Assembly: GCF_000236685.1 (NCBI RefSeq)
Contig: NC_016633.1
Location: 1,426,001 to 1,490,000 of the forward strand
Direction: 5' to 3'
Origin: Sphaerochaeta pleomorpha str. Grapes
GTDB lineage: Bacteria; Spirochaetota; Spirochaetia; Sphaerochaetales; Sphaerochaetaceae
Length of the DNA stretch: 64,000 nt
Position numbers and translations under genes: made by a program. This document shows positions 52,733-64,000 of this stretch, piece after piece; position 1 is the stretch's first letter, and each line of letters opens with the position of its first letter. The notes beneath the pieces were generated by a model. It was not told where the DNA came from and did not search any database. It saw only the letters and a program-made list of their open reading frames with translations.

Positions 52733-52753
52733 TACGTTAAGGTATTTAACGTA
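52733..52753 (+). promoter_or_regulatory. 5'-terminal leader hairpin
   Basis: TACGTTAA-ggtat-TTAACGTA forms a perfect 8-bp stem at the predicted transcript start. It may shield the 5' end from degradation. It is unrelated in sequence to the leaders at 58.9-62.7 kb but placed in the same way. Confidence 0.55.
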
Positions 52754-52780: not shown

Positions 52781-53362
52781 ATGAAAAAAGCAACTGTCGC
52801 TCTGTTAATGGTTCTGCTTATCGCCTCATTCGGCCTTTTTGCAGACGACTTGGTCGATGAAACTTTTCATCCAGGACCCCCAACGATTCTAACTGACTGC
52901 TTGGCAGTGAAAACACTTATCCCAAGCATCAGCTGGATGTGGATTGCTCCTTGCTTCGCCCAAGGACAAGGACCAACATTGGAAAACAACTGGGACTGCG
53001 GACCTCATTGCACACAGTACTACGTAACAGGTCCTGGTGAGCAGAATGTAGGCAAGTGCCTGTATGTCCTGTCGAACAACCGTGGTGGATATAGAGTAAA
53101 CATGAAAGCCAAGGCTTTGAAGTGTGATTGGCTGGGATTCAATACCTATATCAACTATAGGGCAACCTGCGGCGACGCATCTGTAGAAACAAACAATGAT
53201 CCGTTTGTTGATGCAGCCGATCCTGTCGAGATTTTCGCCAACCTGCATATGCTGCAGATGACCTGTAACCCAATTGGTATCAATGTAAATCCATGGGAAT
53301 ACATGTTGGCAGCATCTGGCTTCTATACCGGCGTAATCTTCTTCACATTCATCGCTTGCTAA
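52781..53362 (+). CDS. Cys-rich divergent member of the small secreted protein family
   Basis: This 193-residue protein has a Sec signal (MKKATVALLMVLLIASFGLFA). Ten cysteines are spread over the mature part (among them WDCGPHCTQYY, KCLYVLSNN, LKCDW, RATCG, a final IAC). I judge it related to the array at 58.9-64 kb: KCLYVLSNNRGGYRVNMKAKAL lines up with the GTIAYLSILTNKRTGFTVTMTAEAL type of segment, and the end GFYTGVIFFTFIA with TYTGTVTFTYT. Disulphides are likely in the periplasm or outside. Function unknown. I chose the ATG at 52781 because of the signal peptide and AAAGGAAGAAAG upstream. Confidence 0.75.
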   Translation: MKKATVALLMVLLIASFGLFADDLVDETFHPGPPTILTDCLAVKTLIPSISWMWIAPCFAQGQGPTLENNWDCGPHCTQYYVTGPGEQNVGKCLYVLSNNRGGYRVNMKAKALKCDWLGFNTYINYRATCGDASVETNNDPFVDAADPVEIFANLHMLQMTCNPIGINVNPWEYMLAASGFYTGVIFFTFIAC

Positions 53363-58896: not shown

Positions 58897-58970
58897 GTGC
58901 TCAGGGAAAGAGCATCTTAATGAAATGAACTTGCACAGGAGCCTGGAGCTCCCTAAAAAGGAAGAAAGAA
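58897..58970 (+). ncRNA. Conserved structured 5' leader, copy A
   Basis: Hairpin 1 is GTGCTC-agggaaa-GAGCAT (last pair G-U). After a linker comes the conserved CTTGCACAGG, then hairpin 2 GGAGC-ctgga-GCTCC, and finally the ribosome site AAAGGAAGAAAG. The same layout occurs at 60407, 61708 and 62617. Confidence 0.75.
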
Positions 58971-59507
58971 ATGAAAAAGACAATTGCTATCTTATTGGTT
59001 ATGACAATGGCTTTGGTTGGAGTATTTGCGGCAGCGGAAACGACTACTGATAAAACTTTAAAGATCACCACCGCAGTCAGTGCAGCGTCAGGTTTTAAGG
59101 TTACTTCAAATGCTATCGGGGAAAACAATTTTGGTTATTTCAACAATAGCTTGACTACAATTGCATCACTTCCAGTAACCATTGAGAACGGGATTGGGGC
59201 AGATGCCTACCTTTCAGTCGCCAACAATAGCACTACCGCAAGCTTGCTTGTTTATATGAAAGCTGCTAACATGATAGCATCCGGCGTTGATACAACGATT
59301 GGGTATAAAGTAACTTGCAATGAAGTAGTATATGATACATTAAACGATACTGAGAACAAATTAGTCACCACAGTTTTAGGATCCTCTTCAACTGGTATAG
59401 CTATGGAAAGCGACCAAATTTCAGTAGTTCTTAATAGTGATTCATATTACGATGCAGCTCCCGGAAACTACGAAGGTATTATAACCTTTACAATTTCAGC
59501 TTCATGA
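58971..59507 (+). CDS. Small secreted protein of the array, copy A
   Basis: This 178-residue protein has a Sec signal (MKKTIAILLVMTMALVGVFA). The mature part is Ser/Thr/Asn-rich with no Cys pairs and looks beta-rich. It is the most divergent of the array: ADAYLSVANNSTTASLLVYMKAA stands in for the IAYLSILTNKRTGF-type segment, and the end YEGIITFTISAS for YTGTVTFTYT. I know no named family. A surface, fibre or periplasmic structural role is possible but unsupported. It has its own promoter, leader and terminator. Confidence 0.8.
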   Translation: MKKTIAILLVMTMALVGVFAAAETTTDKTLKITTAVSAASGFKVTSNAIGENNFGYFNNSLTTIASLPVTIENGIGADAYLSVANNSTTASLLVYMKAANMIASGVDTTIGYKVTCNEVVYDTLNDTENKLVTTVLGSSSTGIAMESDQISVVLNSDSYYDAAPGNYEGIITFTISAS

Positions 59508-59527
59508 TTGCTTTGTAGATTCAAAGG

Positions 59528-59554
59528 AAAGCTACCCGATGGGTAGCTTTTTTT
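59528..59554 (+). terminator. Terminator of cassette A
   Basis: AAGCTACCC-gat-GGGTAGCTT with TTTTT following. The core GCTACCC/GGGTAGC recurs after cassettes B and C. Confidence 0.9.
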
Positions 59555-60371
59555 TATGCTTGCTTTTGGGTTCATGGGAATTATCTGCGGGAATGAAGAA
59601 TCAGTCAAAACAGGAATCTGACCTAACATTATAGAAAATGGGCAACTCGTCTGTCAGTATTGAGTTAACCAAAAACCAAACCAACAAGGACGGACGCCCA
59701 TGCAAGAGTAGCAATCAGGTACCAGGTACAACTTCCACACTTCCCCCAGAAACGATTGAAATAGAGCATTCCTGACAGGATTTGCAGAAATCAGGAACCA
59801 GGTAGGAAATCTACAGAATCCCCAGTCCCAGGTTTTAGATATGTTTTGGATTGAAGCGCACCCAAAACATTAGCACCTGGCATCCCCCTGCTGCAGCATT
59901 TTCTCTCTTTTCAGGCCCAGAGCCTAATAGCGAGTATGCAACTCAGTTTTATCTGATTGGTCACCCCGTTTTCTCCCCTTTCCCTCAATCGCCTTAAGCA
60001 TCCACTTTATAAAGCTCTACCAATCGAGTTATAGTCCTCCACTTCCGATGCTATTCCTTGCATCAAGAGACTGCCCGGAACCATGCCTTCTTCCTACAAC
60101 CTTCAAAGGATCCTTGGCCCTGATTCTCTTGGCTTTGTTGCAAGCATTCAATCTATTCTGTTCCATACATCTGTCTTATCTCCTAATAATGTAGAATCTC
60201 TCGTCATATTTTCGGTTTTACTTTCAGAAATTTTTCTATACTTATGTAAGTTTTTCAAACCTAGTGTCATATGTATTTTAAATTCTAAAATTTATATTTA
60301 TTTATTTTATATATATTTAGTTTTACTATTAGTACCAGTTACTAATAGTACTTATTTTTGCACCCTTTCTA
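59555..60371. other. Long non-coding stretch between cassettes A and B
   Basis: I could not support a gene in these 800 bases. A frame from 60083 has no ribosome site and its second half is AT-rich promoter DNA. The middle (59640-60130) has a more even base content than the ends and could be the remains of an inserted or lost gene, but I cannot match it to an IS or to the secreted family. The last 150 bases are an A/T tract leading to the promoter at 60372. Confidence 0.5.
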
Positions 60372-60400
60372 TTGACATAAGTATTCTACATTATTATCAT
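60372..60400 (+). promoter_or_regulatory. Promoter of secreted-protein cassette B
   Basis: TTGACA (60372-60377) and TATCAT (60395-60400) are 17 bases apart. CTATTGACATAAGT is nearly identical to the sequence in cassette A. Confidence 0.8.
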
Positions 60401-60406
60401 AAAGCC

Positions 60407-60474
60407 ATGCTTAGGAAAAAAGCATACAAGACCTATTACTTGCATAGTGGCTTTAGCCCAAAAGGAAATTTTAT
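60407..60474 (+). ncRNA. Conserved structured 5' leader, copy B
   Basis: Hairpin 1 is ATGCTT-aggaaaa-AAGCAT, so three of its six pairs differ from copies A and C, with matching changes on both sides. The motif is CTTGCATAG, also changed to stay complementary to ATGC. Hairpin 2 is small (TGGC-ttta-GCCC). AAAGGAA follows. Confidence 0.75.
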
Positions 60475-61017
60475 ATGAAAAAGAACTTTATAGCTTTAGT
60501 ACTCGTAGCCCTTGTTGCTTCCTTCGGTTTGTTTGCAGCAGCCCTACCACAACCTGCAGAACTTAATCTTTCAACAACTATTTCAGGCATCAACCTGATG
60601 AAGCTAACCACTGACCAATTCAACCCGGCAACCCCGAGTCTCACTTTGTTCAACAATGCCCCAGATAATGAGACAACCGAAGTTGTATCAAGCGCAGCGG
60701 ACACCGGGACCATTGCCTACTTGAGCATACTCACAAACAAGAGAACCGGTTTCACCGTAACTATGACAGCAGAGGCTCTTGATTCCGCAACCGTTGGCAA
60801 CGACTTTCTGATTAACTATGTAGTAACCGCAGGGACTGCAACCTATGACACTTCCAATGGATCAGGAACCAACACCATTACAGTAAACTCAGGCATCGCA
60901 GGCCTTACCGCCTTCAGTTATCCTGTATCCGTAGATCTCAACGATACTGAATATGACGCAGCACTTGAGGACACCTACACAGGAACCGTAACGTTCACCT
61001 ACACAACTAACGCTTAA
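60475..61017 (+). CDS. Small secreted protein of the array, copy B
   Basis: This 180-residue protein has a Sec signal (MKKNFIALVLVALVASFGLFA). The typical family blocks are present: LNLSTTISGINLMKLT near residue 27, GTIAYLSILTNKRTGFTVTMTAEAL near 77, INYVVTAGTATYDTS near 110, and AFSYPVSVDLNDTEYDAALEDTYTGTVTFTYT at the end. The pattern suggests one beta-sandwich domain secreted to the periplasm or cell surface. Function unknown. It is very close to copies C and D and to the decayed copy next to it. Confidence 0.82.
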   Translation: MKKNFIALVLVALVASFGLFAAALPQPAELNLSTTISGINLMKLTTDQFNPATPSLTLFNNAPDNETTEVVSSAADTGTIAYLSILTNKRTGFTVTMTAEALDSATVGNDFLINYVVTAGTATYDTSNGSGTNTITVNSGIAGLTAFSYPVSVDLNDTEYDAALEDTYTGTVTFTYTTNA

Positions 61018-61052
61018 GACAAATCTCCATCTTTTTGCATGACAATCTCCAA

Positions 61053-61083
61053 TAAGGCTACCCTTTACCGGGTAGCCTTATCT
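61053..61083 (+). terminator. Terminator of cassette B
   Basis: AAGGCTACCC-tttacc-GGGTAGCCTT, followed by a weak T run (ATCTTC). Confidence 0.8.
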
Positions 61084-61091
61084 TCAACCTT

Positions 61092-61362
61092 CGTAGAAAT
61101 CCTTCTTGTTGCCCTTGTAAACCTCAGTCAGATTATTTGCTATGGCAGGCGCAAACCTCAACCTCTCCACCACCATTTCAAATAGCAACTACAAAAAACT
61201 TTCTCAGTTGGCTTTAGCCCCTTCGATAGCCAGCCTGCAGATAACAGTGCTACGTCAAATGCTACAACCGAGACGGTCAGTAACACAGAGCCCTCTGGTA
61301 CAATTGCCTGGTTGCGCATTCCTGGCCAACAGAGAACCGGTTTCACATCTGGCATCAAGTAG
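61092..61362 (+). pseudogene. Decayed copy of the secreted-protein gene
   Basis: Bases 61092-61140 resemble the signal-peptide region of copy C but have no start codon and an out-of-frame stretch. After 61141 the frame AGANLNLSTTISNSNYKKL and later DNSATSNATTETV, GTIAWLRIPGQQRTGF match the family. It then stops at 61360-61362, about 60 codons early. There is no promoter, leader or ribosome site in front. The parts lie in more than one frame, which shows small insertions or deletions. Confidence 0.8.
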
Positions 61363-61672
61363 CTTTCTTCGCTCCCCCAAACTGCACAGGAAACCTCCGC
61401 TCCAAATCCTTAATTTTTGATCTTCTCTTTTGCATACCAGCATTTTCAAGTCACTCGGAATAGATAACTAGTGTCAAACCATTTACATTTTCTTGCACTT
61501 TTTCAATTAATCCAATGCAATTTTTTACATATACAAGCACATTTCCTATTACTTTAATGCATTCTTGTCATAAGTTGAAAACTTTAAGAAATTTTCATTT
61601 TGTTTTATAGTATAGTTTTACATATTTTTTTATTATTTTTAATGCTTTAAGTATTTTTTTTTAAAGTTTCTG
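61363..61672. other. AT-rich upstream region of cassette C
   Basis: No gene is seen. From about 61480 the DNA is mostly runs of T and A, as before the other cassette promoters. It probably acts as an UP element or curved DNA. Confidence 0.5.
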
Positions 61673-61701
61673 TTGACATAAGACTCTGTTTTTTATAATA
61701 T
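61673..61701 (+). promoter_or_regulatory. Promoter of secreted-protein cassette C
   Basis: TTGACA (61673-61678) and TAATAT (61696-61701) are 17 bases apart; TATAAT at 61694 overlaps. GTTGACATAAG is shared with cassettes A and B. Confidence 0.8.
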
Positions 61702-61707
61702 ACACAT

Positions 61708-61777
61708 GTGCTCAGGGAAAGAGCACTTCTCGAAAATCTTGCACAGGGGCCTGAAAAGCCCTTAAAGGAATTTTAAA
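61708..61777 (+). ncRNA. Conserved structured 5' leader, copy C
   Basis: Hairpin 1 is GTGCTC-agggaaa-GAGCAC, perfect. CTTGCACAGG follows, then hairpin 2 AGGGGC-ctgaaaa-GCCCTT (one G-U), then AAAGGAA. Confidence 0.8.
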
Positions 61778-62308
61778 ATGAAAAAGAATATCGTAGCTCT
61801 TGTTGTTGTTGCCCTTGTAGCTTCATTCAGTTTGTTTGCTGTTGCAGATGCAAACCTTAACCTTTCAACTCATATTTCAGGCATCAACTACATGGCCTTA
61901 ACTGCAACGGAACTCACGACTTCCACTGTAGATGCATACGATACCGCTGCTGGGACAATCGTGGGGTCCAAGGAAATCACAAGCGCAACCGCTACTGGAA
62001 CCATTGCATATCTGAGCATCCTCTCCAACAACAGAAAAGGCTTCGAAGTAGCAATATCTGCCACTCCACTTGCCTCTTCCACTGATGGCAACTCGTACAA
62101 AATCAACTACGTGGTGCATGCAGGAACAGCTTCCTTTGATACTTCTGCCAATGCCACTAATACCTCCAACAAACTTACCGGTGGAGTCATTGCAGGCCTC
62201 AAGGCTTACAGCTTCCCAGTTTCAGTGGCCGTCAACGGTACCGAATATGCAGCAGCCCTTGAAGACACCTACAGAGCAACAGTCACCTTCGCCTACACTG
62301 CAAAATAA
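61778..62308 (+). CDS. Small secreted protein of the array, copy C
   Basis: This 176-residue protein has a Sec signal (MKKNIVALVVVALVASFSLFA). The family blocks are LNLSTHISGINYMALT near residue 27, GTIAYLSILSNNRKGFEVAISATPL near 72, INYVVHAGTASFDTS near 107, and AYSFPVSVAVNGTEYAAALEDTYRATVTFAYT at the end. It is closest to copy B. Function unknown. The TGTVT of the others is RATVT here. Confidence 0.82.
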   Translation: MKKNIVALVVVALVASFSLFAVADANLNLSTHISGINYMALTATELTTSTVDAYDTAAGTIVGSKEITSATATGTIAYLSILSNNRKGFEVAISATPLASSTDGNSYKINYVVHAGTASFDTSANATNTSNKLTGGVIAGLKAYSFPVSVAVNGTEYAAALEDTYRATVTFAYTAK

Positions 62309-62337
62309 TCCCGGATTCATTCCAAGCTTGTCTGTCC

Positions 62338-62369
62338 AAAAAGCTACCCCTGCACCGGGTAGCTTTTTT
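62338..62369 (+). terminator. Terminator of cassette C
   Basis: AAAAGCTACCC-ctgcacc-GGGTAGCTTTT with TTTT. The arms match the terminator of cassette A. Confidence 0.9.
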
Positions 62370-62616
62370 ATTGATGAATGCTAAAGGTTCATTACCATAT
62401 TTGCAAAACAATTGGTTCTTTCACATCACAGGGCAATACCTCTTTCCCTAGCTGTAGCAACTGATCAGGGTCTCTCTTGCATTTTATTGCCTAGGTGTCA
62501 TATAGTATGGCAATTAGTGACTATGTATCTTGATTTGTTGTTTATAGTTAATTTAGTATTATACGTTTAGCTATAGCTGTTAATAGAAGACCTTTTTCTC
62601 TTTAATGATACAACCG

Positions 62617-62682
62617 TGCTCAGGGAAAGTGCACTGTTCTAAAATCTTGCACAGGAGCCTACACTCCTAAAGGAATACTACC
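62617..62682 (+). ncRNA. Conserved structured 5' leader, copy D
   Basis: Hairpin 1 is GTGCTC-agggaaa-GTGCAC with one T-T mismatch. CTTGCACAGG follows, then hairpin 2 AGGAG-cctaca-CTCCT and AAAGGAA. The promoter in front is weaker than the others: AATGAT fits the -10 at 62605-62610, but no good TTGACA is seen 17 bases upstream. Confidence 0.75.
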
Positions 62683-63219
62683 ATGAAAAAACCCTTCATA
62701 GTTCTTATCCTGATTGCTTTAGTAACTACGGTAAGCTTGTTTGCTGGTTCTGAGACAACTGCAGATGCGAGCCTTACCCTATCTGCCGAAATCTTGGGTA
62801 TCAACATGATGAAACTGACTGCGTCTCCATTCACCCCCGAAACTCCTAGTATCGACCTATTCAATGGAGCTGCCGACAACGAAAATCTGGAAGAAATCAG
62901 CAGCGCAGAAGAAGTCGCGGACATCGCTTGGTTGAGCATCCTTACCAACAGGAGAACGGGTTTTTCAATCTATGTTTCAGCTACCCCTTTGGTAAATGCT
63001 GACAAAAACTATGAAATCGATTACAAGATTTCAATGAATGAAACCTTCACGTACGCATCAAAACCGACAAGTCTCCCCTTCGTAGAAATAAAGCCAGGAA
63101 TAACAGGCCTTTCCGCTTTCAGTTATCCGATCTCAATCGATATCAATGATGATCAATATGCAGCTGCCTTGGAAGGAACCTACACCGGAACTGTTACCTT
63201 CACCTACAAAGCAAATTAA
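62683..63219 (+). CDS. Small secreted protein of the array, copy D
   Basis: This 178-residue protein has a Sec signal (MKKPFIVLILIALVTTVSLFA). The family blocks are LTLSAEILGINMMKLT near residue 30, IAWLSILTNRRTGFSIYVSATPL near 83, and AFSYPISIDINDDQYAAALEGTYTGTVTFTYKAN at the end. It has more acidic residues (ENLEEISSAEEVAD) than copies B and C. Function unknown. Confidence 0.82.
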   Translation: MKKPFIVLILIALVTTVSLFAGSETTADASLTLSAEILGINMMKLTASPFTPETPSIDLFNGAADNENLEEISSAEEVADIAWLSILTNRRTGFSIYVSATPLVNADKNYEIDYKISMNETFTYASKPTSLPFVEIKPGITGLSAFSYPISIDINDDQYAAALEGTYTGTVTFTYKAN

Positions 63220-63593: not shown

Positions 63594-64000
63594 ATGAAAA
63601 GGCTTTTTGCAATCATAGTATCGATAGCTATTCTCTGTTCACTCTCACTATTTGCCGCTGATGGAACAGCAACTACTTCTAGCGCTAAGTTAACCATTTC
63701 TGCAACAATACAAGAAGAAAGCAATATCAAGATAACCGACGCAACCCATTCAAGCATAGACAGGAAGGATTTCGATTCTGTCACGCCTTTTACCAAATAT
63801 GTAATTCTGGGATCGGGGAAAACCGGAGTAATCGCATATGTCCATGTCAAAACCAACAAACATTCAAACTTCACCATCACAATGACCGCCACCCCATTAA
63901 CCTCAGAAAACAACTCGGCAAAAATTGATTATACAGTCTACTTGGATGAAGGTACTAACGATGTCACCTTCACTACAAATGCATCATCCAACACGAACAA
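63594..64000 (+). CDS. Small secreted protein of the array, copy E (partial)
   Basis: The ATG at 63594 opens a frame of 135 codons that runs off the window. A Sec signal (MKRLFAIIVSIAILCSLSLFAA) is followed by a related domain: KLTISATIQEESNIKIT near residue 31, and GVIAYVHVKTNKHSNFTITMTATPL near 77, then IDYTVYLDEG. This confirms membership although the leader differs. The gene end is outside the window. Confidence 0.78.
   Translation, partial: MKRLFAIIVSIAILCSLSLFAADGTATTSSAKLTISATIQEESNIKITDATHSSIDRKDFDSVTPFTKYVILGSGKTGVIAYVHVKTNKHSNFTITMTATPLTSENNSAKIDYTVYLDEGTNDVTFTTNASSNTN

Follow-up and report, generated by a model that had tools for sequence, protein, structure and literature searches.

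A 64,000-nucleotide stretch of Sphaerochaeta pleomorpha str. Grapes (contig NC_016633.1, positions 1,426,001 to 1,490,000; hereafter the window) contains four genes for secreted proteins that are each preceded by a similar short leader, which raises the question of whether these leaders form a functional RNA element and what they do for the genes behind them. The leader is a real, shape-keeping structured RNA, far beyond chance, and it appears to occur only in a single spirochaete family and before a single family of surface proteins. We propose, tentatively and a little short of even confidence, that it represents a hitherto undescribed cis-acting RNA class that heads pilin-like genes of the Sphaerochaetaceae and combines a 5′-shielding hairpin (P1), a second hairpin (P2) and a recognition sequence, ACUUGCAC.

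Two covarying hairpins and a nearly invariant sequence

The leaders, all on the forward strand, occupy window positions 58897-58970, 60407-60474, 61708-61777 and 62616-62682 and share the order P1 (loop AGGRAAA), linker, CTTGCAyAG, P2, AAAGGA and ATG. Leader 1 consists of P1 (GTGCTC-AGGGAAA-GAGCAT, 58897..58915) at the predicted +1, the invariant ACTTGCAC (58929..58936), P2 (GGAGC/GCTCC, 58938..58952) and the ribosome-binding sequence AAAGGA (58957..58962), with the ATG at 58971. P1 of leader 2 (ATGCTT-AGGAAAA-AAGCAT, 60407..60425) differs from those of the other three by compensatory changes, and is followed by ACTTGCAT (60438..60445) and a short P2 (GGC-TTTA-GCC, 60449..60458). The corresponding elements are GTGCTC-AGGGAAA-GAGCAC (61708..61726), CTTGCAC (61738..61744) and AGGGGC/GCCCTT (61745..61763) in leader 3, and GTGCTC-AGGGAAA-GTGCAC with one mismatch (62616..62634), CTTGCAC (62646..62652) and AGGAG/CTCCT (62653..62668) in leader 4. 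Sequence and covariance model agree on P1 in all four leaders, with covariation in leaders 1-3; P2 was assigned by sequence (leader 2) or by sequence and covariation, the linker motifs by sequence and alignment, and the ribosome-binding site by sequence. An earlier, sequence-only reading of this DNA had described the four leaders with their two-hairpin layout, all of which were found again on re-reading; its coordinates hold for the first three, and the fourth hairpin, which it placed at 62617, begins one base earlier at 62616. Its observation that P2 keeps pairing while its bases change is borne out by covariation, with the qualification that P2 is strong in leaders 1, 3 and 4 and comprises just 3 base pairs in leader 2.

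A covariance model built from the four window leaders (R1), which score E values of 2e-14 to 3e-17 each, and a refined model (R2) were used to collect further copies, and 51 copies were aligned (alignment A5). This alignment was fitted to the structure and its counts therefore lean towards it, yet the margin is large: standard pairs occupy 93.6% of paired positions compared with 80.4% in shuffled alignments, the covariation score is 0.488 compared with 0.255, and changes on both sides occur in 11 of the 12 base pairs. Because shuffles ignore relatedness, double compensatory changes were also counted on a FastTree tree of the leaders, which gave ∼20 independent events. Sliding the partner column by 1-3 positions left 0-2 of them, and randomly chosen partners gave 1.3 on average and 7 at most. 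RNAalifold recovers the same two helices, and G-U pairs are kept in many copies (one pair is UG in 12 of 47, another in 8). The P1 loop tetranucleotide is GGGA in 34 copies, GGAA in 14, GUGA in one and something else in two, and both GGGA and GGAA fit the GNRA pattern. The linker carries ACTTGCAC or CTTGCAC in 45 of the 51 copies, and ACUUGCAC stands out as 7-8 unpaired, nearly invariant bases amid variable flanks and stems. Two other pairing schemes were rejected. Pairing of the P1 GUGC with the GCAC of ACUUGCAC is contradicted by P1 arms that become AAGC, GAGC or GUAC while GCAC stays constant, and a pseudoknot between loop and P2 by P2 changes that follow the opposite P2 arm, no consistent loop partner being visible by eye.

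Distribution and gene context of the leader

Matches to R1 (E up to 1) and to R2 were each found in 23 of 26 Sphaerochaeta genomes, with the best R2 copy per genome at E 2e-10 or better. Weaker R2 matches occur in three further genera of Sphaerochaetaceae: one genome (G116) has a nearly complete layout, two (G108 and G109) seemingly keep ACTTGCAC, P2 and AAAGGA with no recognisable P1, and another (G113) keeps P1 and P2 with ACTTGCAC absent. Elsewhere in a phylum sample of 393 genomes there were marginal matches alone (E 0.008-0.1), those inspected lacked the layout, and no copy was credible. When 84,980 species were scanned for the promoter followed by CTTGCAC, 33 places were found, of which 16 were supported by R2, all in Sphaerochaeta or Spirochaetales records; neither the non-spirochaete places nor the matches in viral contigs had model support. 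Within S. pleomorpha itself, the covariance model detects no fifth copy across the whole 3.59 Mb genome. Two additional copies elsewhere look decayed or displaced, L103 lying ∼150 bases from its gene and L104 having lost P2.

Each credible copy of the leader follows a single type of promoter and stands in front of a single kind of gene. Forty-nine of the 51 copies directly precede an open reading frame of one secreted family of ∼180 amino acids and the other two precede broken reading frames, and none of the copies examined lies before a metabolic gene. The sequence-only reading had predicted additional copies, always upstream of this family and with significant covariation, and had considered that they might be limited to recent duplicates; more than 40 further copies came to light, extending far beyond such duplicates, in the gene context and with the compensatory changes it had foreseen. 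Conversely, about nine close family members in Sphaerochaeta have no leader.

In the window the proteins encoded behind leaders 1 to 4 have 178 (58971..59507), 180 (60475..61017), 176 (61778..62308) and 178 (62683..63219) amino acids. Profile comparison links the family to the CS17 fimbrial subunit (E 1.5e-6), with weaker matches to CS1 CooA (0.006) and CsuE. A structure predicted for the 180-residue protein (mean predicted local distance difference test score, 85.9) gave CfaB/CS17 as the top Foldseek matches, with a best E of 0.002 and none below 0.001, and structural comparison gave Z 8.2 for CS17 (3.4 Å over 118 residues), with glycosidase beta-domains close at Z 7.5. In profile and in predicted fold alike, the family is similar to class 5 (CFA/I-CS17) fimbrial subunits. 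The usher domain PF00577 was found in none of the 26 genomes, a search that does not cover the class 5 usher family or the chaperone.

Predicted transcript start and proposed role of the leader

The leader keeps a fixed position relative to both its promoter and the start codon. In 48 of 51 copies, TTGACA begins exactly 28 bases upstream of where the model starts. If RNA synthesis begins 7 nucleotides past the −10 box, P1 has its first base at about +1, where the sequence-only reading had also put it, and we infer that transcription begins at this base. The first four nucleotides are predicted to be unpaired with a probability of 0.14, compared with 0.69 in shuffled leaders. At least five family genes that lack this leader (L141, L142, L063, L144 and the one at window position 52781) carry another hairpin close to the +1 predicted for them, and since these hairpins are unrelated, a paired 5′ end seems to be selected independently of sequence. 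A separate DNA element, TGTCAyA, lies ∼135 bases upstream of the leader start (also at −149 and −242) and is oriented oppositely to the TTGACATA of the −35 box. It occurs in the window at about 58755, 60265, 61566 and 62496 and also at many related loci, and the two sequences could possibly form an operator pair.

In a review of messenger RNA (mRNA) decay, RppH and ribonuclease (RNase) E are described as requiring single-stranded 5′ ends, which explains stabilisation by 5′ structure and for which work on the papA 5′ stem-loop is cited, and RNase Y as preferring monophosphorylated RNA in vitro (PMC3997798). We propose that a strong TTGACATAAG / TATAGT promoter would direct transcription to start at the first P1 base and so yield a base-paired mRNA end, and that P1 most likely protects this end from pyrophosphate removal and 5′-end-dependent decay, as reported for the papA stem-loop. 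P2 would set the structure beside the ribosome site, and a partner acting in trans (protein or RNA) may recognise ACUUGCAC, or this sequence may make a tertiary contact, so that expression is tuned. The leader probably governs message stability or translation efficiency. Both papA, which encodes a pilin (the P pilus major subunit), and ompA of E. coli reportedly have a 5′-terminal stem-loop on their mRNAs, with RNase E as the enzyme involved, and the leader resembles them in placing a hairpin at the inferred 5′ end of a surface-protein mRNA. Together with the effect of 5′ structure described above and the pilin-like nature of the proteins, this favours a stabilising, expression-setting role to which a recognition sequence is added. 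In contrast to papA and ompA, the leader adds a second hairpin that also covaries, a loop of GNRA type and the invariant ACUUGCAC. A stem-loop in the leader of a secreted-protein gene has also been described for Helicobacter pylori vacA, where it is reported to influence expression; that case concerns a single potential stem-loop in the 5′ untranslated region of one gene in unrelated bacteria (PMC4843948).

Several observations weigh against protection of the 5′ end as the function of the leader. RNase E, the enzyme used in E. coli, and RNase G were not found in the 26 Sphaerochaeta genomes, and RNase J gave weak, partial matches with none at the cut-off, while RNase Y and RppH were not searched. 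With RNase E/G not found and no full-length RNase J, the enzymes classically blocked by a hairpin seem to be missing and the simplest protection model is weakened. A pure stabiliser leaves the GGRA loop and ACUUGCAC unexplained, and three leaderless relatives (L140, L145 and L147) have no such 5′ hairpin. Nor is the ribosome site predicted to be masked or opened by the leader, its unpaired probability being 0.50 compared with 0.53 in shuffled leaders; with pairing between leader and coding sequence at 0.24 compared with 0.32, masking or insulation of the site is unsupported. The leader offers a practicable way into the study of gene control in bacteria that seem to have neither CsrA nor RNase E/G nor a classical RNase J.

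The near invariance of ACUUGCAC amid changing flanks and stems could also mean that a small RNA acting in trans, or a protein that binds RNA, recognises it and that the hairpins merely present it. In favour, two loci of another genus (L083 and L084) appear to keep ACUUGCAC, P2 and AAAGGA without P1, but a further locus outside Sphaerochaeta (L085) has P1 and P2 yet no ACUUGCAC; we regard this explanation as possible, on the unlikely side. One familiar partner would be CsrA, as GGA or GGGA is present in nearly all P1 loops and GGA at nearly all ribosome sites, the arrangement of CsrA-bound leaders. However, the CsrA domain PF02599 is absent from all 26 genomes, with positive controls detected, and control by CsrA is rejected for Sphaerochaeta, barring an analogue that escaped recognition, leaving this reading scarcely credible. 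The compact covarying fold at the ribosome site, with its invariant, unpaired ACUUGCAC and GNRA-like loops, suits a metabolite or second-messenger riboswitch. In such a switch the loop of P1 would dock either on P2 or on an internal loop formed by ACUUGCAC, and a small molecule would gate AAAGGA; pairing is predicted between CUU in ACUUGCAC and AAG at the ribosome site. Surface and pilus genes are among the known targets of cyclic di-GMP riboswitches, and the GNRA loop of GEMM is docked. The leader shares with GEMM (c-di-GMP-I), preQ1 and guanidine riboswitches the form of a small structured leader but differs in consensus and architecture. The sequence-only reading had judged that these three types do not fit and had named no riboswitch class with this pattern, and cmscan against Rfam gave no riboswitch family match for the window at gathering thresholds or for four related loci at E up to 10, and the sole Rfam overlap with a leader was a sub-threshold long non-coding RNA model (TCL6_2, 21.7 bits with a cut-off of 45). 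Moreover, the leader precedes one structural protein family and never metabolic genes, an alternative structure is not evident and predicted masking does not exceed the control, all of which makes a riboswitch of this kind distinctly unlikely. A broader version, in which the GNRA-capped 5′ hairpin, ACUUGCAC and the ribosome-site hairpin form a new ligand- or factor-sensing leader class for interchangeable pilin-like genes, is doubtful. A literature search found no paper on Sphaerochaeta with a riboswitch, and the leaders apparently form a family of structured, strongly covarying RNA that has not been described before, with the function given here as a proposal.

Two further explanations dispense with an RNA function. 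At the predicted start P1 forms an inverted repeat, with TGTCAyA as a second DNA element upstream, and P1 could be a palindromic operator bound by a transcription factor; this is very improbable, because joint changes of both arms and the many G-U pairs fit an RNA rather than a protein-bound palindrome, and P2 covaries too. Alternatively, the leader might be kept merely as homologous DNA for swapping alleles of the mature protein, given that related species mostly share 85-100% identity over promoter, leader and signal sequence, and that identity drops to ∼50% over the mature coding part. Such homology needs neither compensatory base changes nor a fixed promoter distance, and there is accordingly very little likelihood that it accounts for the leader. 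A 5′-shielding cis-acting RNA with a recognition sequence remains the reading that we prefer.

Sequence identity across the genes and other window features

One boundary of high identity lies within the signal peptide and the other at the stop codon, and at one locus 80-100% identity resumes downstream of the stop codon. At class B loci of four Sphaerochaeta species (L068, 6341-6960; L070, 3845-4452; L071; L049), the flanks (promoter, leader and signal sequence on one side, the sequence past the stop codon on the other) are highly identical and the mature part is ∼50% identical between some of them, a sharp change. From these alignments the pattern looks like allele replacement behind a constant expression head. 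A silent cassette store beside the loci is not evident, just a few gene fragments lying nearby. This constant head of a swapped gene, the GNRA-like P1 loops and the CFA/I-CS17-like gene family are additions to the sequence-only reading. The leader marks genes whose mature part appears to be exchanged between species and so provides a landmark for studying surface variation in Sphaerochaeta.

Other members of the gene family are present in the window. A fifth (63594..63998, forward strand), which extends beyond the window end, has a related promoter, TTGACATATG, and no match to the leader model. A decayed pilin-like gene copy at 61084-61353, 5′-truncated and with an internal stop, is flanked by two intact leader-bearing genes. 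The distant family member at 52781-53359 is cysteine-rich and has its own, unrelated 5′ hairpin (ACGTTAA-GGTAT-TTAACGT, 52734..52752, forward strand) at the predicted +1.

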